Positions 1,496-10,064 of a stretch of 10,064 nt of DNA are shown piece by piece (the stretch's first letter is position 1; each line of letters opens with the position of its first letter). The notes under the pieces were generated by a model. The model was not told where the DNA came from. It did not search any database and was given only the letters and a program-made list of their open reading frames with translations. This stretch comes from Desulfobacterales bacterium (GTDB lineage Bacteria > Desulfobacterota > Desulfobacteria > Desulfobacterales > JAUCGF01), in contig JAOZRC010000042.1 of the NCBI GenBank assembly GCA_029940345.1, forward strand, positions 5,814 through 15,877, written 5' to 3'. A program made the position numbers and the translations under genes.

Positions 1496-4400
1496 ATGAA
1501 GGAAGTCAAAAATTCAATGCAAAAAATCATCGCTAAATGGCTTAAAATCTATGAAGATGAAATCAGTCTCTTTTTTTGGGCCTTGATTTTACTTTTCTTC
1601 ATTCGCAGCGCCTGCATTATTTTTAACAATTTTTCCGAAACCGCCTTTCTTAAACGCTTTGGCGTGGAGTATCTGCCGATTGTCTATGTGATTAACTCGA
1701 TCACGACGTTCATTATCATGGCGTTTATGACCGGCTATATGAAACGTCTTCCGGGCGCCCGCTTATTGTTTTACTTGCTTTTGTTTTGCAGTGCCGTCGT
1801 TGCTGCATTTCGTTTCGTGATTCCATTTGGATTTGAACTGATCTATCCGGTTTTATTCGTTCTCAACACCCAGTTTGAAGTGCTGCTGATCCTCATTTTT
1901 TGGAACCTGGGCAACGATCTGTTCAACACCCGCCAATCCAAGCGCATCTTTCCGCTGATCACCATTGGGGGGGTAATCGGAAGAATTTTAGGCAGTTTCG
2001 GAACTCCTTTTTTTGTCAAAGCCTTTTCATTTGACAATCTGATGTGGGTTTATTGCGGTTTTGCACTGGCCGGCGCGTTGGTCGCGCGCCAAATGGGCGT
2101 TCGTTTCCCCACGCTGCTTATTTCCGATCAGGAACCGGGCCAGGTTAAGAAACGAACGCCGATGATTGAAGAGTTTAAAATGGTTTGGCCGATGATCCAG
2201 GAATCGACCCTGGCCAAAATCTTTATCTTTTTAACGCTCCTGCCCAATATCGCTATTCCCATATTAAATTACCAGTTTAATTTTGCCGTGAATGATCATT
2301 TTGCCTCTGAAGGTGGGATGGTTCAATTTTTTGGCTATTTCAGAGGTGTCATTAATATTATCAGTCTGATTTTGCTGCTGTTTATCGGTCGGGTGTATGG
2401 CCGTTGGGGCTTACCTGTGGTGATGCTGTTTCATCCGATCAATTATTTTATTGTGTTTCTCTCTTTTTTCTTGCGATTAAACATTTTTACGGCGATGTAC
2501 GCCCGGCTTTCGACAAATATCATCCGCACTACCATGAATGCACCCGCTACCGGAATACTCATGGGGTTGTTTCCCCTGTCTTACCGTAATGTCATTCGCC
2601 CCTTTCTGAGAGGCACGGTGGTGCGCATCGGCGTATTGATCGGGTCCGGTCTGATTTTAGTATTAGAGCACAGCGCGAATCCGCGTTGGCTCTCTCTGGC
2701 CGGTATGATTGTTATTAGCGGATGGATCATCACGACGCTGTTTCTTAAAAAATCGTATCCCCAAATTCTGTCAGACCTGATTTCCCGCAACTTGATAGAT
2801 TTAAAAGCAATGAAGCCCGATGATGTCAAACAAGTGTTTAATGATAAGGCGGCGCGCAACCGCTTGAAAGATCGTTTTTTGGCAGCCAGGGGGGCGGAGT
2901 GTCTATGGTATGCCCGCTTGCTTCAATCGCAAGGCGCCGAAAACTTGGATGCGCTGATCTTAACCGTGTTAGATAAACACGACGATACGGTGAAAGCCGA
3001 ATTGTTGGGTCTGTTATCCGCTGACGCCGGCAAAAAGGCAATCCCCATACTCAAAAAAATGGCCGCGTCCGCCAATCCGGAATTGCAGATCGCAATTGTC
3101 AAAACGCTTGCCCGTATGCCTGAGCCATCCGCTCTGAAAATATGCCGGGAAATTTTTAAAACCGCTGTCCATCCGAGGGGCAAAGCCTACGCTCTTATCC
3201 CGCTTTATACCGATGCACCGGAAAAGTACGCCGCTGTCATTGACGCCTGGCTGCAATCGGATGATCCAGAAAAACGCCGCGCCGGCGTCATTATTGCTGG
3301 CGCTAGCCGTGATGCGGCTTATATTCCCAAACTGGGGAAGTTAGCCGACAAAGAGGAGATAGGCGCTATTTTGCCCGACCTGCTTAAAGCGTTTCATCAG
3401 TTAGGCCTGAAAAAAATCAATGACCGTATTGATCCCTATCTCAGCCATCATCGGACGGATGTTCGTCTGGAAGCACTGAATTTATATGAAATTCACAACG
3501 ACACAGAAATGGAAAAGGTCGTATGGTTGTTAAATGACCCTTCTGCGACCGTATGCAAAGCCGCTTATAACAAACTTAAAGAATCTTCTTATCAAAATCC
3601 GCAGGTGTTGATCAAAGCAATCAACCTTCCACGGCGCAAAATTCGGGAAAGCATTTTTAAACTTTTGCAATTGTTAAATATTGTCGATCTGGATGTTTTC
3701 CGCTATGCGCGTAACGAAATTCACCGCGGGTATATCTGTCTGGCCGAATCACAGGGCATTGCCATGCTCCGGGACAGCCAGGAAAAAGAGTTGCTTTTCG
3801 ATCACCTGAATCAAAAAATCGAAGTGATGATGGAAAATGTTTTAAGAGTGCTTGCCAGCCAGGACAATTCCGGGAAAATGCGCATCGTATGGCGCGGCGT
3901 GTTTTCCAACGATGCCCGACAGCGCTCCAACAGCCTTGAAGCATTGGAAAATCAGACGGATCGTTCCTTGTCTGAAATTATGATCCCTCTTTTGGAAAAG
4001 CTCTCTTTGGAAGAAAGCCTTGAAACTGGTCGGCAACATTTCGATCTACCCGTTTTTGACGGCAAACCGGCTGAACTGTATACCAACTTATTGTCACACG
4101 CGGATTGGGTCACGGCGCTGCTGTGCCTGGGGCATTCGGTTCGTGTGGGTGCCGACAGCGCCGCCGATCGGATTGAGCCGGAAATGCTCAAGGATCTGAT
4201 AAAATGGGACAATCCCTATGTTCGCCACATGGCGCAATGGGCCCTTGATGTTAATCATGTTCATCCGGAGGAAAATATGAACGCATCCATATCCGTTTCG
4301 GATAAAGTACTCCATCTCAAAAGCATTCAAATTTTTAAAGACCTGGCTGTAAGCGAATTGGCGGCCATTGCATCCGTCACGGATGAAGTTACCGTCGAAG

Positions 4401-4753
4401 CGGGAGAAGACTTTATCAAAGAAGGCGACGCAGGTGACATCATGTACCTGGTGATTGAAGGTGACGTGGCGGTTATAAAAGGCGCCGAACAAACGGGTGG
4501 GCGCGGCATCGAACTGGCCCGCATCAAAACCGGCGATTATTTCGGTGAAATGGCGCTTTTTGAAGACGCTCCGCGCGCGGCAACGATCCGCACAGTTGAT
4601 AAATCATGGTTGTTAGCGCTGCCTAAAGATGAGTTCGCCGAAATCGTTAGAGAATATCCGCAAATTGCCTTGCATATCTGCAAAGCCTTTGGGGGACGGA
4701 TTCGCGAATTGCATGATGTCATTAAGGGGTATGAAAAGCAGTTGCCAACTTAA
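1496..4753 (+). CDS. NTT/MFS-like membrane transporter fused to HEAT-like repeats and a cyclic-nucleotide-binding domain
   Basis: A 1085-residue, three-part protein. Residues about 22-418 form roughly 10-12 membrane helices resembling the ATP/ADP (NTT/TLC) and MFS-like carriers. Residues about 440-920 are soluble and rich in paired amphipathic helices of HEAT type (for example 480-540 and 640-700). Residues about 930-1070 form a cyclic-nucleotide-binding domain: GEDFIKEGDAGDIMYLVIEG, then the phosphate-binding cassette FGEMALFEDAPRAAT at 1016-1030, with the expected Glu1018 and Arg1027 both present. The simplest inference is a membrane transporter or sensor gated by cAMP or a related nucleotide. 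Related fusions occur in environmental bacteria, but the substrate is unknown, and nucleotide transport should not be assumed. The ATG at 1496 has only a poor ribosome binding site; the in-frame ATG at 1517 (Met8) follows AGGAAG at 1500-1505 at reasonable spacing and may be the true start. The gene stands alone on this strand, flanked by palindromic repeats. Confidence 0.88.
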   Translation: MKEVKNSMQKIIAKWLKIYEDEISLFFWALILLFFIRSACIIFNNFSETAFLKRFGVEYLPIVYVINSITTFIIMAFMTGYMKRLPGARLLFYLLLFCSAVVAAFRFVIPFGFELIYPVLFVLNTQFEVLLILIFWNLGNDLFNTRQSKRIFPLITIGGVIGRILGSFGTPFFVKAFSFDNLMWVYCGFALAGALVARQMGVRFPTLLISDQEPGQVKKRTPMIEEFKMVWPMIQESTLAKIFIFLTLLPNIAIPILNYQFNFAVNDHFASEGGMVQFFGYFRGVINIISLILLLFIGRVYGRWGLPVVMLFHPINYFIVFLSFFLRLNIFTAMYARLSTNIIRTTMNAPATGILMGLFPLSYRNVIRPFLRGTVVRIGVLIGSGLILVLEHSANPRWLSLAGMIVISGWIITTLFLKKSYPQILSDLISRNLIDLKAMKPDDVKQVFNDKAARNRLKDRFLAARGAECLWYARLLQSQGAENLDALILTVLDKHDDTVKAELLGLLSADAGKKAIPILKKMAASANPELQIAIVKTLARMPEPSALKICREIFKTAVHPRGKAYALIPLYTDAPEKYAAVIDAWLQSDDPEKRRAGVIIAGASRDAAYIPKLGKLADKEEIGAILPDLLKAFHQLGLKKINDRIDPYLSHHRTDVRLEALNLYEIHNDTEMEKVVWLLNDPSATVCKAAYNKLKESSYQNPQVLIKAINLPRRKIRESIFKLLQLLNIVDLDVFRYARNEIHRGYICLAESQGIAMLRDSQEKELLFDHLNQKIEVMMENVLRVLASQDNSGKMRIVWRGVFSNDARQRSNSLEALENQTDRSLSEIMIPLLEKLSLEESLETGRQHFDLPVFDGKPAELYTNLLSHADWVTALLCLGHSVRVGADSAADRIEPEMLKDLIKWDNPYVRHMAQWALDVNHVHPEENMNASISVSDKVLHLKSIQIFKDLAVSELAAIASVTDEVTVEAGEDFIKEGDAGDIMYLVIEGDVAVIKGAEQTGGRGIELARIKTGDYFGEMALFEDAPRAATIRTVDKSWLLALPKDEFAEIVREYPQIALHICKAFGGRIRELHDVIKGYEKQLPT

Positions 4754-5250: not shown

Positions 5251-7395
5251 TCAAAACGACATCTCCTTCTGAAACACATTCAAAATAGTGCGCAAGTAGC
5301 CGCCGAATAAAGACGAATACACATAAATTTTGGCGGTTCCGGTGCGTCCGACAGGCAAGTCGGATTCCGCTAGCGGAGCAATGGTAATGCGATAATAGGG
5401 TTCAGCCAGTTTGAATGAATCCTGATTGTCCGGCAAGGTGGCCAACGGGCCGCCAAAAATATCCATCAGCGGGGTGGCTGGCAGGGTTCGCACCGGAGCC
5501 AGATTTACGGAAACCACTTTACCCGCAATCTTGCGCAGTTCATTTTGGAGCGTGATCGTCACTTTTGCTTCTGGATGAATGTCGATAATTTTCTTTTCTT
5601 TTACATACGCATAAATAAGCGAATGCGCCGGTGAACAGACTTCGCCGATCTTATCACCCCGGGCAAGCCATTTGCCGGATTCTAACAACGGATCATATAA
5701 GGTTAAGACACCTGCAAAAAACGCACCGGTTTCAAGAAGGGCTTCACGGCGTTGAAACTCTTTATAACTGTTGATCGCGGCATCCAGGCGCTCAATGGCC
5801 GCATTTTTCAACGCAATCGTACGAGCGCGGCTTTGAATCTGATCCAATTCGGATTGCAATTGTTTGATTTCCAGTTGCCAGCGTTCCCCCTCCAGTTCAA
5901 AAAGTGGATTCGACTGGGTGAAAAGTGCTTGATTCCGCTTTACGTTGCTTCCATCGCTGGCATGTAGTTGCGCTAAAAACCCTTCCTGGCGCACATATAG
6001 AATTTGAGAATCCTTGGCTTTGACTTCGCATGGCATGGACACCGGCCAAGGCAACGGTGCGATGCAAAGCGCTGACAATATACTGATAACCATGATCAAA
6101 CCGATTAAATTGGCTTTCCGAATCATATGTTTATGTCTCCCAATTACGCGTCCTTCGGCAATCAGCGGCCTGATAATAAATATATATACCTCCAGGCTTG
6201 CCAGAAACAGCCCCACCGCTTTGGTGAATTGATAATAAACAATCAGAATAATAACGGTGTAAAGAAAAATTCGATACGCCATGGCTGCAAGGCCATACCA
6301 GAATAAAAAAACAGCTTGCCATTCGATCAATTTTATATTTTCTGGCCGTTTTTGTGAATCCGAAGGGATGCCTAACAGGCGTGTACGCAGAAACGTTTTA
6401 ACCGCATCAAACCCGCGACGCTGCAAGTTGTCAATGCCGGTCAGGTCCATTAACAGGTAATAGCCGTCGTAGCGGATAAAGGGATTGCCATTAATGAACA
6501 CCGTATTGACGACACTGACGGCAAATATATAATAGCAGAGCGTGTTGGCGAAGCCAGGCGCGGTGTTAAGCCAGACTAAAATGGCCAGACCGCCGATAAG
6601 CATCTCTGCCAAAATACCGGCGGCATCAATTAACATCCGTTTGCGGCGCTGGGTGACGCGCCAGGCATCGGTGATATCCGTATAAAGCCGGGGAAAAAAC
6701 ACCATGAAACCGATGCCGAATCGGCGCACGCGCACGCCGGCCCATTTGGCGGTGTAGGCATGCGCAAATTCATGCCCGATTTTCAGGAATATAATTACGA
6801 TTCCATATTTAAACAGGCCCTGAAATGTCAAAGAACGCATCATGGCGTCCATAAACTTAGGCCAGTGAACAGCCAGATGAACATAGCCGGTCAGCGCGAT
6901 GAGGCTCAAAACAAGAAGCGTCCAGGGATTGACAAACCAGGCTACGGTCGCGTAAGTTTTGGAAAGAAAATTATCCGGCTTCCACAAGGGCACTTTAAAA
7001 AACAGGTAGGATGACATCAGGCGCGTCACGGCTGAACGCGCCCGTGCTTCACGCGCCGATGCCAGGCGTTGCTCCGTTTTGCCATACACCGGGAGCATTA
7101 AGTTATTGTGGTTGAGGAAATTGAGGCGCGTCATAATGCCGGTCGCATCCATAAGAACACCCGGTCGGGTCAATTGATCGGCAAGGGCGGACACTGTCTG
7201 ATTCTGATAGAGACGACTGATAATCGCATAGTCCGTCAGCGCCATTTTGTAATATTTGTCGGCCACCGGATCAAACAGCATCCAGGTGGGTTCACCTTTG
7301 GCATCTGTCGTTCCGGAAAGCACCTGGATATCGGCACGCAACTGTCCGGTGTCTATTTTATTTTTTGAGGTTGATTGATGAGAGGCTGCGGTCAA
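5251..7395 (-). CDS. PqqD-like / M50 zinc metalloprotease / HlyD adaptor fusion
   Basis: A 714-residue membrane protein, last in the three-gene minus-strand operon. Residues about 18-105 resemble a PqqD-like winged-helix peptide-binding domain. Residues about 150-450 form the multi-helix M50 (site-2-protease-like) core, with the zinc motif HEFAH at 208-212 and the third-ligand region NGNPFIRYDGYY at 302-313 (Asp310); both are intact, so it is predicted to be active. After the last helix (about 428-448) comes an HlyD-type adaptor: the first lipoyl half at about 465-492, a coiled-coil hairpin at about 500-555, the second lipoyl half at about 559-590, then a beta-barrel. Such fusions belong to the 'putative peptide zinc metalloprotease' family associated with export of peptides or large surface proteins. 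The start is a TTG at 7393-7395 that overlaps the upstream TGA stop (TTGA), implying translational coupling; the next Met (39) would cut into the PqqD-like domain. The substrate is unknown. Confidence 0.88.
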   Translation of the reverse strand: MTAASHQSTSKNKIDTGQLRADIQVLSGTTDAKGEPTWMLFDPVADKYYKMALTDYAIISRLYQNQTVSALADQLTRPGVLMDATGIMTRLNFLNHNNLMLPVYGKTEQRLASAREARARSAVTRLMSSYLFFKVPLWKPDNFLSKTYATVAWFVNPWTLLVLSLIALTGYVHLAVHWPKFMDAMMRSLTFQGLFKYGIVIIFLKIGHEFAHAYTAKWAGVRVRRFGIGFMVFFPRLYTDITDAWRVTQRRKRMLIDAAGILAEMLIGGLAILVWLNTAPGFANTLCYYIFAVSVVNTVFINGNPFIRYDGYYLLMDLTGIDNLQRRGFDAVKTFLRTRLLGIPSDSQKRPENIKLIEWQAVFLFWYGLAAMAYRIFLYTVIILIVYYQFTKAVGLFLASLEVYIFIIRPLIAEGRVIGRHKHMIRKANLIGLIMVISILSALCIAPLPWPVSMPCEVKAKDSQILYVRQEGFLAQLHASDGSNVKRNQALFTQSNPLFELEGERWQLEIKQLQSELDQIQSRARTIALKNAAIERLDAAINSYKEFQRREALLETGAFFAGVLTLYDPLLESGKWLARGDKIGEVCSPAHSLIYAYVKEKKIIDIHPEAKVTITLQNELRKIAGKVVSVNLAPVRTLPATPLMDIFGGPLATLPDNQDSFKLAEPYYRITIAPLAESDLPVGRTGTAKIYVYSSLFGGYLRTILNVFQKEMSF

Positions 7396-8792
7396 ATTTT
7401 ACGCCAGGCCAAAATAAGATTGCGAAAAAGATAGTAGCCCAAAGAGACTTCCCGGCCTTTTACACGGGCAACACCGCGCATACCATATATAAGATTCGGC
7501 GTCGTCTCATTTAATGCCATTCTGATAATATAACAAAACTGATTCGTCTCTGAAAGCACCGGCTTGGGACTGATTGAAACAATCTGTCCGTTGATGGCTG
7601 TTTCCGGCCGGGTGTGCAGGTAGAGCGCGATCAGAGGCTGTTCGCGCAAGACAACGGCATCAATTTCGTTTAACCATATTTTGGCAAAAGGCTTGCCAGG
7701 GCGGATAATTTCAAACAGTTTTTCACCCGCGGCAACGGATCTTCCCATGAGTTTTTCTTGTTCTTCAATGACCAAAACACCGCTGTGTTGAGCTGTAATA
7801 CGGCTTTGGGAGAGATACCAATTGATTTTGCGGATGTCGATTTGCTGTTTTTGCTGTTTGATCTTGAGCAATTCGATTTTACCACGCTGTTTGGGGTCAC
7901 TAAAAGATTCCTGGCGGATCAGATCCAAGTCGGCGCTGATTTCATCATATTTTTTGCGAGCGTCCGCCAGTTCAAACTGCAATTTGGCGGTGTCATAAAT
8001 GATCAACAGATCACTTTTGGCGATGGAGTCGCCGTTTTTAAAATAGGATTCGCCCAAAATACCGCTAAACGGCGCATATTGCATAAAAATATTTTCAGGA
8101 ACAAGTTCGAAATCGGCGGCCACATTCTGATGCGTGCGGACAAACACAAGCGCCAGGAAAAATACAATCAAGCTTAAGCCTAACATTTTAAGCGGTGTGA
8201 TCCGGCGGCGTCCTTTCAGCGCTGCCAGTGTTACTTTGCTTTTGCGCTGCAGCATCGCCCAGAGGGCCTCACTGTAATGTTGGGCTAAAAGAAATAAAAG
8301 TCCTTGAACCCCATCTTCCGAGTGGTTTTTGAATTCGAGCATCCATAGGAAAAGGTTACTTGCGGGCGCCGGACTTCCTGGTTCTCTCAAGGGAATCAGA
8401 TCAATCCGGCCGGGGAAATTTTCTTTAAAATAGTGATAAGCATCAGACGCTTTTTTTGATGCGTTATTCCGTTTCAGTATTTCGGCATCCACAGAAACCG
8501 GTTGTTTTAGCGCATGAAAAGATCTCAGCAGGTTGCGCACCTGGATGCAATATTCGGAATTGGCTTTGACCTCACTTTGCCCCATGACAGCGATAATATG
8601 CGGGCGCTCCGAACGCATATCCACCAGGCAGGCGCGGTCATAAGCGGCAATATGGCGGCTGTTATTCAAGATATGGGCGGCAAGGGCATCCGGATTGCCT
8701 TTTTGAAAGGCTTCGTGCCCTAAACGGATAATCGCGGATAAAACATTGATTTTACCTTTGAGTTCGTTCAGTTTATCAGAATGGTGATCCAT
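7392..8792 (-). CDS. GAF-like domain / single helix / HlyD-family adaptor fusion
   Basis: A 466-residue protein. Residues about 10-180 form a soluble cytoplasmic domain with GAF-like character (long N-terminal helix, YDRACLV strand, VMGQSEV, LLFLLAQHYSEALWAM terminal helix). A basic stretch and one membrane helix follow (about 202-220), then a periplasmic HlyD/membrane-fusion region: first lipoyl half at about 235-268, coiled coil at about 268-325, second lipoyl half at about 330-365, beta-barrel to about 445. The topology suggests an inner-membrane adaptor whose cytoplasmic part senses a ligand or docks a partner. It starts 23 bp after the upstream stop with AAGGCGG as ribosome binding site, and its stop overlaps the start of the protease-adaptor gene. 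The GAF assignment is by fold-like pattern only; the adaptor part is more secure. Confidence 0.83.
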   Translation of the reverse strand: MDHHSDKLNELKGKINVLSAIIRLGHEAFQKGNPDALAAHILNNSRHIAAYDRACLVDMRSERPHIIAVMGQSEVKANSEYCIQVRNLLRSFHALKQPVSVDAEILKRNNASKKASDAYHYFKENFPGRIDLIPLREPGSPAPASNLFLWMLEFKNHSEDGVQGLLFLLAQHYSEALWAMLQRKSKVTLAALKGRRRITPLKMLGLSLIVFFLALVFVRTHQNVAADFELVPENIFMQYAPFSGILGESYFKNGDSIAKSDLLIIYDTAKLQFELADARKKYDEISADLDLIRQESFSDPKQRGKIELLKIKQQKQQIDIRKINWYLSQSRITAQHSGVLVIEEQEKLMGRSVAAGEKLFEIIRPGKPFAKIWLNEIDAVVLREQPLIALYLHTRPETAINGQIVSISPKPVLSETNQFCYIIRMALNETTPNLIYGMRGVARVKGREVSLGYYLFRNLILAWRKI

Positions 8793-8815
8793 GATCGGAA
8801 TCCGCCTTGCGGGTT

Positions 8816-9619
8816 TTATTCAATCAGCACGCCTGACATGCCGGGTGCCAGGGTTTGGGCCTTATTATCCAAAACCGCTTTGACTTCGAAGGTGCGGCTG
8901 CCCGGATCAATCATACCGGCGATTTCGTAGACCACACCCTCATGTTTAACACCGGTTTCATCAATCCTGAACGTCATTTTAGCGCCTGTTTTAACAGCGT
9001 TGATCCGAGATGAAGGCAGGTGCATAAAGGCAAGCAGTTTATGGTCGTCGATAATTTCCATCACCGCTTCACCGGTTTTGACAAATTCATGTTCAAAAAT
9101 AATTTTGCGAATCAGTTTGCCGGCGAAAGGCGCTGTGATATTACAGAAATTAACGTTAAGCTGGGCCATCTTCAGTGTCGCCCGCACCAGACGAATTTTG
9201 GACTTGGCGATTTCATTGTCTGTTTTGCTTCGTTCCAGTTCCTGATTGCCCAGCGCGCCATCCCGGTATAATTCCATATTGCGTTGAAATACTTTTTCAC
9301 TGAATCTAAGTTGGGTTTCCGCCTCCAGCAGCACCGCTTTGGCCTTTAAGAGTACCTGGCGATATTGACTGTTGTCAAGTTTGACGATGGAAACGCCTTT
9401 GGTAAATTTTTCACCTGGTTTATAATTATACGTGGTAATCACCGAATCAATACGCGCCGCGATGACAGCTTTGCGATAGGGAAAGAGAACAATTTTGGTT
9501 GACCGATCGCTATCATTACTTGCCGCATACGCACTCACTGGAAAAAGCAAAAAATAGAAAACAGCTAACAGAAGTGTATCAATGCACCGAGCGAATGGCT
9601 TAATCTTTCGTTTCGACAT
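8816..9619 (-). CDS. Secreted RND/HlyD-type periplasmic adaptor, first gene of the operon
   Basis: A 267-residue protein counted from the ATG at 9617-9619, which has an AAGGA ribosome binding site 7 bases upstream. A TTG-initiated extension to 9643 would overrun that site and is disfavoured. Residues 1-32 are a classic signal peptide: basic start, hydrophobic LLLAVFYFLLF core, cleavage likely after AYA. The split biotinyl-lipoyl domain is at about 51-87 and 160-191 (NITAPFAGKLIRK), separated by an alpha-hairpin (88-155), and a beta-barrel ends the protein. It stops after the beta-barrel, so it is shorter than the usual 350-400-residue RND adaptors and lacks a membrane-proximal domain. There is no lipobox Cys, so it should be soluble in the periplasm. 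A pump gene, which normally follows such adaptors, is absent here; two further adaptors follow instead. Confidence 0.87.
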   Translation of the reverse strand: MSKRKIKPFARCIDTLLLAVFYFLLFPVSAYAASNDSDRSTKIVLFPYRKAVIAARIDSVITTYNYKPGEKFTKGVSIVKLDNSQYRQVLLKAKAVLLEAETQLRFSEKVFQRNMELYRDGALGNQELERSKTDNEIAKSKIRLVRATLKMAQLNVNFCNITAPFAGKLIRKIIFEHEFVKTGEAVMEIIDDHKLLAFMHLPSSRINAVKTGAKMTFRIDETGVKHEGVVYEIAGMIDPGSRTFEVKAVLDNKAQTLAPGMSGVLIE

Positions 9620-9701
9620 AATATTTTCCTTTTTGCTGTACAATCCCGAATAGCGCTAGTATATACCATCAAACTGTTATTTCTTACAAGGAGTGATTTT
9701 A
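9620..9701. promoter_or_regulatory. Divergent intergenic region, likely promoters for the adaptor operon and the small gene
   Basis: An 82-bp AT-rich region between two divergent starts. On the minus strand TATACT (9658-9663) resembles a sigma-70 -10 box, with TTGTAA upstream but at over-long spacing (about 20 bp). On the plus strand TTGCTG with TAGTAT at 18 bp spacing is possible. The assignments are weak; that promoters exist here follows mainly from the divergent gene arrangement. Confidence 0.4.
9688..9693 (+). promoter_or_regulatory. Ribosome binding site AAGGAG deciding the start of the small gene
   Basis: AAGGAG at 9688-9693 lies 8 bases before the ATG at 9702. The longer reading frame that begins with GTG at 9693 would start inside this site, so the ATG is the real start. 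Confidence 0.85.
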
Positions 9702-9971
9702 ATGAGTGATGAAAAAGAAATTTATGTGGATGGTATTGGGAAGGTGCATTTCGTCGGCGGCATGGTGCGGTTTGATATGGTGACGCTTAAGCCCAACGAA
9801 GATGGGACCAATCGTGAACCCGTGCCTGAATTTAAGCAACGGATTATTATGCCGCCGAACGGTTTGTTAGGTATGTACAATACGATGAAGCAATTTATTG
9901 ATCAATTGGTGGATGCCGGCGTATTGCGCAAAACTCAAAAAGCGCCAACGCCTAAAAAGAAACTGCACTAG
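9702..9971 (+). CDS. Small conserved-looking soluble protein, 89 residues, unknown function
   Basis: An 89-residue protein with a strong ribosome binding site. The sequence has beta-strand-like segments (EIYVDGIGKVHFVGGMVRFD, then QRIIMPPNG), a predicted helix (LLGMYNTMKQFIDQLVDAGVL) and a Lys/Pro-rich tail. There is no signal peptide and no membrane helix, so it should be cytoplasmic. The arrangement of strands followed by an RI-M-P helix region faintly recalls DUF3467-type small proteins, but this is a guess. It is divergently transcribed from the adaptor/protease operon, so it may share its control region; whether it works with the operon is not known. Confidence 0.8.
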   Translation: MSDEKEIYVDGIGKVHFVGGMVRFDMVTLKPNEDGTNREPVPEFKQRIIMPPNGLLGMYNTMKQFIDQLVDAGVLRKTQKAPTPKKKLH

Positions 9972-10064
9972 CAGGCGTCGGCATGATAATTGCTGTAAGG
10001 CGCTTCCCATTTCTTAGAGCCTGTTTGGAAAGTCGTGATCGAAGCGAAAAAGTGTGAGAGCGAG
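9972..10064. other. Downstream non-coding end of the window
   Basis: Ninety-three bases after the small gene with no recognisable terminator, repeat or gene start. Confidence 0.5.

Follow-up and report, generated by a model that had tools for sequence, protein, structure and literature searches.

The window, that is, the entire stretch of 10,064 nt that was analyzed from the genome of an uncultured Desulfobacterales bacterium related to sulfate reducers, contains three adaptor genes arranged in tandem on the minus strand (Table 1). As a preceding sequence-only reading had described, these genes encode a soluble adaptor, a GAF-TM-HlyD fusion and an M50-HlyD fusion, with a gap of 23 bp between the first two genes and an overlap of 4 bp between the second and the third. 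The soluble adaptor (MFP) has a single hydrophobic stretch (residues 12-30), and an N-terminal signal peptide was assigned by eye. The M50 fusion matches the Pfam families M50 (E = 9.8e-9) and HlyD_3 (E = 2.8e-7). The intact zinc ligands noted in the earlier reading were indeed present in this membrane protein, in the form of an HExxH motif and a distal Asp motif, which makes it a putative protease. Its N-terminal domain has a PqqD-like (RRE) fold, seen against a leader-bound structure, and Pfam recognized neither PqqD nor GAF in the window's branch. In a Foldseek search with the predicted model of the M50 protein (pTM 0.48), all 50 matches listed were adaptors.

Table 1. Features of the adaptor locus and of the adjacent contig end (positions in the window).
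Feature	Positions	Strand	Remarks
MFP, soluble periplasmic adaptor, 267 aa	8816..9619	-	HlyD_3 E 3.6e-17; RND_mfp 137 bits
GAF-TM-HlyD fusion adaptor, 466 aa	7392..8792	-	
GAF-like domain of the GAF fusion	~8220-8777	-	
TM segment (one) of the GAF fusion	8139-8195	-	
Adaptor part of the GAF fusion	~7437-8138	-	
RRE-M50-HlyD fusion, 714 aa	5251..7395	-	Leader-binding-like domain, putative intramembrane metalloprotease, adaptor
RRE/PqqD-like domain, residues 17-103 of the M50 protein	7087..7347	-	
HExxH zinc motif HEFAH, residues 208-212	6760..6774	-	Invariant in two alignments
Second zinc-site motif NPFIRYDG, residues 304-311	6463..6486	-	P305 and D310 invariant in two alignments
Adaptor domain of the M50 fusion, residues 448-701	5293..6054	-	
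Divergent 92-aa ORF (ATG at 9702)	9693..9971	+	Between adaptor and TolC gene in HSG9; candidate member only
Arm of a short, high-copy inverted-repeat element (MITE-like)	10013..10064	+	Contig end

Elsewhere in the window, on the strand opposite to the trio, positions 1496-4753 encode a 1085-aa fusion of a weak NTT/MFS-like membrane part, HEAT repeats and a cNMP-binding domain. Positions 1-290 encode repeated MIRLLKK/MIRLLRK units in a frame that, by eye, is open on both strands.

No ABC, RND or MFS pump partner was recognized in the window's locus. Adaptors normally serve ABC, RND or MFS pumps, so that the three proteins could simply be spare parts for such a pump whose genes lie at another site of the fragmented genome, given that pumps were searched for in the trio loci. 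However, the domain composition of the GAF and M50 fusions differs from that of known pump adaptors, and the gene neighborhoods in other genomes render the explanation improbable. The three-gene order, for which the earlier reading had called for a survey, does recur. In all 16 loci that were chosen by the M50 gene only and had at least 3 kb of sequence on each side, a set that includes five plasmids hand-picked among 30 listed M50 matches, both other adaptors are encoded within 8 kb. Within this distance, GAF-HlyD and MFP genes occurred at all 16 loci, an OEP/TolC gene at 12, a gene for a short SecA-like ATPase at 6, and an ABC ATPase gene at just one, where it lies on the opposite strand. 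No ABC pump was co-conserved in the loci examined; RND genes were searched for among the Pfam-scanned neighbors. In a wider set of 22 loci with the same flanks, which adds six loci (L097-L102) found via the GAF-HlyD protein and left out of the counts above, the corresponding values within 8 kb were 22 for GAF-HlyD, 20 for MFP, 16 for OEP, 7 for SecA-like and 3 for ABC ATPase genes. None of these three ABC genes adjoins the trio: in two cases the gene is on the opposite strand, and in the third it is 6.6 kb away.

Altogether, a match to the M50-HlyD protein was found in 23 of the 58 genomes of the order, the window's own genome counted. Among 42 loci with labeled ORFs, an M50-HlyD protein scored above 400 bits in 39 (the other three being two fragments and an HSG9 locus that lacks M50), and both other adaptors accompanied it in 28 of these 39 loci, many of which are truncated by contig ends. 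Because the loci are related to each other, these counts do not represent independent trials. At L051 the other adaptors lie on the opposite strand, as does the OEP gene at L052. The genes of the trio do co-occur across genomes. In HSG9, the M50 gene is located on an 8.5-kb contig with other neighbors, and the GAF and MFP genes are found together on a 93-kb contig. Barring an assembly error, the three genes thus need not lie close together. The HSG9 neighbors of the M50 gene (L038, G001:C84) are RuvB-, SAM_HAT- and bactofilin-sized genes that resemble those on the window's contig. A scan of genome contigs with one protein yielded HSG9 as the sole match. For Lentisphaerae, linkage is suggested by 37 contig sizes common to the M50 and GAF match lists, in a comparison that took in 35 of the 120 MFP matches.

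The outer-membrane channel, which the earlier reading had assumed to be encoded elsewhere, turned out to be linked to the adaptors. Not only is a TolC-family gene present within 8 kb at the 12 loci mentioned above, but one also adjoins two of the adaptors in HSG9 (L070:12019-14103, 694 aa, OEP E 1.7e-28), where it has a lipoprotein-like start by eye and begins 55 bases past the 92-aa ORF. This ORF is 97% identical between the window and HSG9, and the gene order at L070 is the same. The window stops 93 bases beyond the ORF, within a short repeat that has at least 45 matches in the genome (40 of the 222 candidates were scored), many of them at contig ends. The window's own genome encodes a TolC-type protein on contig C938 (bases 53-2122, OEP E 1.5e-28) that is 77% identical to its HSG9 counterpart over residues 3-651. 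The start of this contig is the opposite arm of the repeat, with a score of 53 compared to a maximum of 32 in 5000 shuffles and to at most 16 for nine other contig ends. The HSG9 gene order and the matching arms of this high-copy repeat on the window and on C938 suggest that the TolC gene is probably the next gene after the 92-aa ORF in the window's own genome as well, with the repeat inserted between them.

The 92-aa ORF itself had matches in three of the 58 genomes, the window's own and HSG9 counted. It was considered as a candidate DUF3467 protein, such as occurs in SecA-type operons, and this assignment was not supported, given that there was no Pfam match and an hhalign probability of 4.3%. 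DUF3467 proteins recur in the SecA-type operons and in Thalassospira (L050:4769-5116, L056:6148-6486, L099:10591-10932, and L100:10559-10855). The TolC-type proteins of the window's genus have a long C-terminal extension in which FMLD-like motifs recur, as judged by eye (L070:12019-12700; L107:53-750, minus strand); a relative at L044 has rubredoxin-like and weak SPOR matches instead of this extension.

The trio itself is not new, since a SecA-linked locus of this composition was described in 2015: Kamneva, Poudel and Ward reported M50/HlyD, GAF/HlyD and HlyD proteins next to a SecA, with an OEP in some cases and no ABC transporter, and proposed a role in secretion, with SecA providing the ATPase activity and the M50 protein as a possible pore (PMC4452313). 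The window shares with this SecA_DEAD, or type I-like, locus the co-occurrence of an M50-HlyD, a GAF-HlyD and a third HlyD protein. However, the defining feature of the published locus is a secondary SecA, whereas no SecA-like gene was found beside the trio or anywhere on the window's contig, and the window's own genome (93% complete and fragmented) contains a single SecA_DEAD match, in an 847-aa frame. The sections of the paper that deal with the locus name no RRE, leader motif or substrate, and the terms DUF3467 and cadherin are absent from its main text. The literature search revealed no publication on HSG9 and no link between LEPR proteins, the RRE and the trio, nor one between LEPR proteins and an export machine, with most subscription papers and bioRxiv preprints outside its coverage. 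Accordingly, with the SecA-linked form already published, the system is better known than the earlier reading had assumed.

In a tree of 49 M50 proteins, the SecA-associated loci group together, and this group includes Thalassospira L100, which lacks a SecA gene in the stretch examined. The proteins of the window, HSG9, a near relative and ten sequences from the homologue search form a clade with a support of 1.000, and three of these ten are named Lentisphaerae or Victivallis. The plasmid loci with TolC and DUF4347 genes and several loci of the same order fall outside both the SecA group and the window's clade, with uneven deep supports. Beyond its near kin, the closest relatives of the window's M50 protein are 42-44% identical and those of the GAF protein up to 49%, the named ones being Lentisphaerae/Victivallales; the identity of the M50 protein to genomes of its own order other than HSG9 is 23-32%. 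The closer match to Lentisphaerae/Victivallales than to the same order suggests horizontal transfer.

In several other genomes, the trio is accompanied by candidate cargo. On plasmids of Burkholderia anthina, Azospirillum, Niveispirillum, Kosakonia and E. coli, the gene order is large Ig-like/DUF4347 protein, TolC, MFP, GAF-HlyD and M50-HlyD; a Magnetospirillum locus has an ELWxxDGT protein in the first position, and several trios in genomes of the window's order adjoin large cadherin/Ig/DUF4347 proteins. The large neighbors have in common an N-terminal motif, L/F/I-E-x-R-x-[LVM]-[FLY]-[DS]-[AG]. This motif is present in 14 of the 17 large neighbors with a readable start (those with a cut-off start were excluded), in 13 by pattern and in Pseudosulfitobacter (FEPRVLLSAD) by eye; it is absent in a HrpK-type protein of Phyllobacterium, in a G018 protein with a Sec-like start, and in the Magnetospirillum ELWxxDGT protein. 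The motif was defined from part of the same proteins that were then counted; among the five starts first examined after the motif was known, four carry it. In Azospirillum brasilense, it is the DUF4347 gene that carries the motif, and an Ig-like gene between this gene and TolC does not have it. The motif was also found in Tistrella and in Caballeronia, in the latter case in a frame separate from the rest of the gene. In a control set of 366 ORFs, each having its own start codon, six matched, all of them large proteins in trio loci, versus an expectation of 0.01 from shuffles. The motif was absent from all 345 proteins of the homologue search and from 15 other ORFs of at least 900 aa in trio loci. 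The hydrophobic maximum of the eight leaders measured was 0.61-1.51, compared to 2.41 for a Sec-like control; that is, these leaders have no Sec-like core.

The nearest named motif is LEPR-XLL (NF012209), which similarly marks the N-termini of large surface-type proteins, although most of the leaders described here are outside the model scans or under the cut-off. In scans of five proteins and six genomes, the cut-off was reached by a G010 protein only, and the model missed known cases in G023 and G025; the large Thalassospira protein carries a LEPR-XLL annotation. The second-best match of the model in the genome scans, located in G019, is a frame of 3605 aa that begins with MFKLLRLEDRIVLDGAA, right after a frame that is TolC-like by eye, so that a leader beside a putative channel gene was found here without using the trio. 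This frame (L084, G019:C79) is on a different contig from the two trio-type loci of that genome and is a second leader-bearing giant there.

DUF4347 was tried as an export signal and rejected: it is present in 129 plasmid records, 40 of which are from Phaeobacter, compared to 78 with M50-HlyD relatives. Four DUF4347 starts were examined, on records absent among the 60 listed of the 78 M50-HlyD matches. DUF4347 starts without the motif were found in Phaeobacter, Dolichospermum and one A. brasilense plasmid, for which a plasmid with a consecutive accession, probably of the same strain, has the M50 gene. A Qingshengfaniella DUF4347 protein has a variant of the motif (LEQRIAFDA), with no trio in the stretches examined.

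The E. coli plasmid pABWA45_1, of the IncF type, harbors the full cassette (L077:9769-16064), with the large Ig-like gene at positions 118682-132055 of the record. The part from TolC to M50 was matched in 24 of 5426 complete E. coli genomes, in 22 over at least 80% of its length, and 21 of the 25 places are on plasmids; we know of no named description of this cassette. The Pseudosulfitobacter plasmid NZ_CP085155.1 contains a 38.2-kb gene (positions 43731-81944; L099, L111) whose product, of about 12,700 aa, has a LEPR-type N-terminus, adjoining DUF3467, GAF-HlyD, M50-HlyD and SecA-like genes.

The corresponding search in the window's own genome and in HSG9 revealed no convincing leader-bearing cargo. 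DUF4347 had no match in the own genome, nor in 14 control genomes, and cadherin was found in neither the own genome nor HSG9. The best match of the LEPR-XLL model in the own genome was 11.7 bits in a 57-aa frame, with none in HSG9. A LEPR-type DNA pattern, for which the reversed control gave as many or more matches in three of four genomes, did not occur in the own genome and had one match in HSG9, located close to the end of an ORF of 302 aa, presumably an aminotransferase gene. Big_9 had no match in HSG9 and two in the own genome; the one above the cut-off is in a 620-aa frame with a Sec-like start and without the motif. The combination of leader and trio is thus seen in other branches only, and for the window itself the claim is limited to a secretion core of this kind. 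The earlier proposal of a processing-coupled export machine gains from the RRE-like domain fused to M50 and from the motif on large proteins beside other trios, but no such cargo was found in the genome for which it was made.

The apparent lack of a giant substrate in the two genomes raises another explanation, namely that in the window's branch (the HSG bacteria and, by sequence, Lentisphaerae) a small ribosomal peptide is made and exported, and that the M50 protein has a function similar to that of the daptide protease or EpeP, cleaving the peptide and perhaps also exporting it. Among NCBIfam models, the protease part is indeed matched best by the daptide protease model NF041824 (residues 114-406, E 2.9e-39). 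In daptide biosynthesis, an RRE is N-terminally fused to a site-2 protease, the leader motif is ELExMEAP, its Leu and Met are needed for modification via a second RRE protein, MpaB, and MpaP, an RRE-dependent peptidase, removes the leader (PMC10036551). A precedent for a combined role in cutting and export, as has been suggested for this M50 protein, is EpeP (PMC10885120). The window's protein resembles MpaP in that an RRE precedes an intramembrane protease, and the daptide leader motif likewise contains LE; however, no adaptor domain is named for MpaP in the sections concerned, and its cargo consists of small modified peptides (PMC10036551). Moreover, the match reaches only 135.3 bits, compared to a curated cut-off of 300, the Pfam scan of the contig shows no peptide-modifying enzyme, and three MacA-like adaptors with a TolC gene suit a large cargo. 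We therefore regard a small-peptide exporter as unlikely.

Alternatively, the complex might be mainly a sensor, with GAF as the input, M50 cutting a regulator, the adaptors reading the envelope, and export being secondary. Sensing is the usual function of GAF domains, and the release of regulators is common among M50 enzymes. The 2015 paper, too, suggests that the GAF protein has a regulatory role (PMC4452313). However, TolC genes and large surface-type proteins are linked to the trio in other genomes, there is no sigma/anti-sigma gene among the Pfam matches of the contig, and the RRE fold points to leader binding, so that this explanation appears quite improbable.

On balance, with a likelihood slightly above even, the trio forms the core, in the inner membrane and periplasm, of a pump-less, leader-reading, protease-linked, TolC-dependent protein secretion system. 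Compared to type I and tripartite efflux systems (HlyB-HlyD-TolC and MacAB-TolC), it shares a linked TolC-family channel (in HSG9; by probable adjacency in the own genome) but has no recognized ABC/RND pump and has three different adaptors, two of them fused. In the mechanism we propose, the substrate would be made with an N-terminal leader. By analogy, the cytoplasmic RRE-like domain of the M50-HlyD protein would bind this leader and deliver it to the intramembrane protease, and the M50 part would cut it while the chain is passed on. The three unlike adaptors would form one mixed ring that links the inner membrane to the TolC-type channel, and the GAF domain may gate or sense. Because the adaptor part of the M50-HlyD protein would already be in the periplasmic conduit, recognition, cutting and export would be coupled in one chain. 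The inner-membrane drive would come from SecA, namely from the dedicated short SecA-like ATPase in one branch and perhaps from the housekeeping SecA in the window's branch. We infer that the window's cargo resembles the cargo found elsewhere.

It is conceivable, although we hold this only tentatively, that the core trio, with a range from Desulfobacterota and Lentisphaerae to E. coli plasmids, represents a general route by which giant surface proteins with a RiPP-style leader are read by an RRE fused to an intramembrane protease and reach TolC via three adaptors joined in a mixed ring, in some branches without a dedicated ATPase. If true, this would join the leader recognition of small ribosomal peptides with the secretion of giant surface proteins, and it would offer a testable answer to how LEPR-type proteins, which have no evident Sec signal, exit the cell. 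It would also extend, by forms that lack SecA, a machinery for which the authors of the 2015 paper termed the broader role "completely unknown" (PMC4452313).
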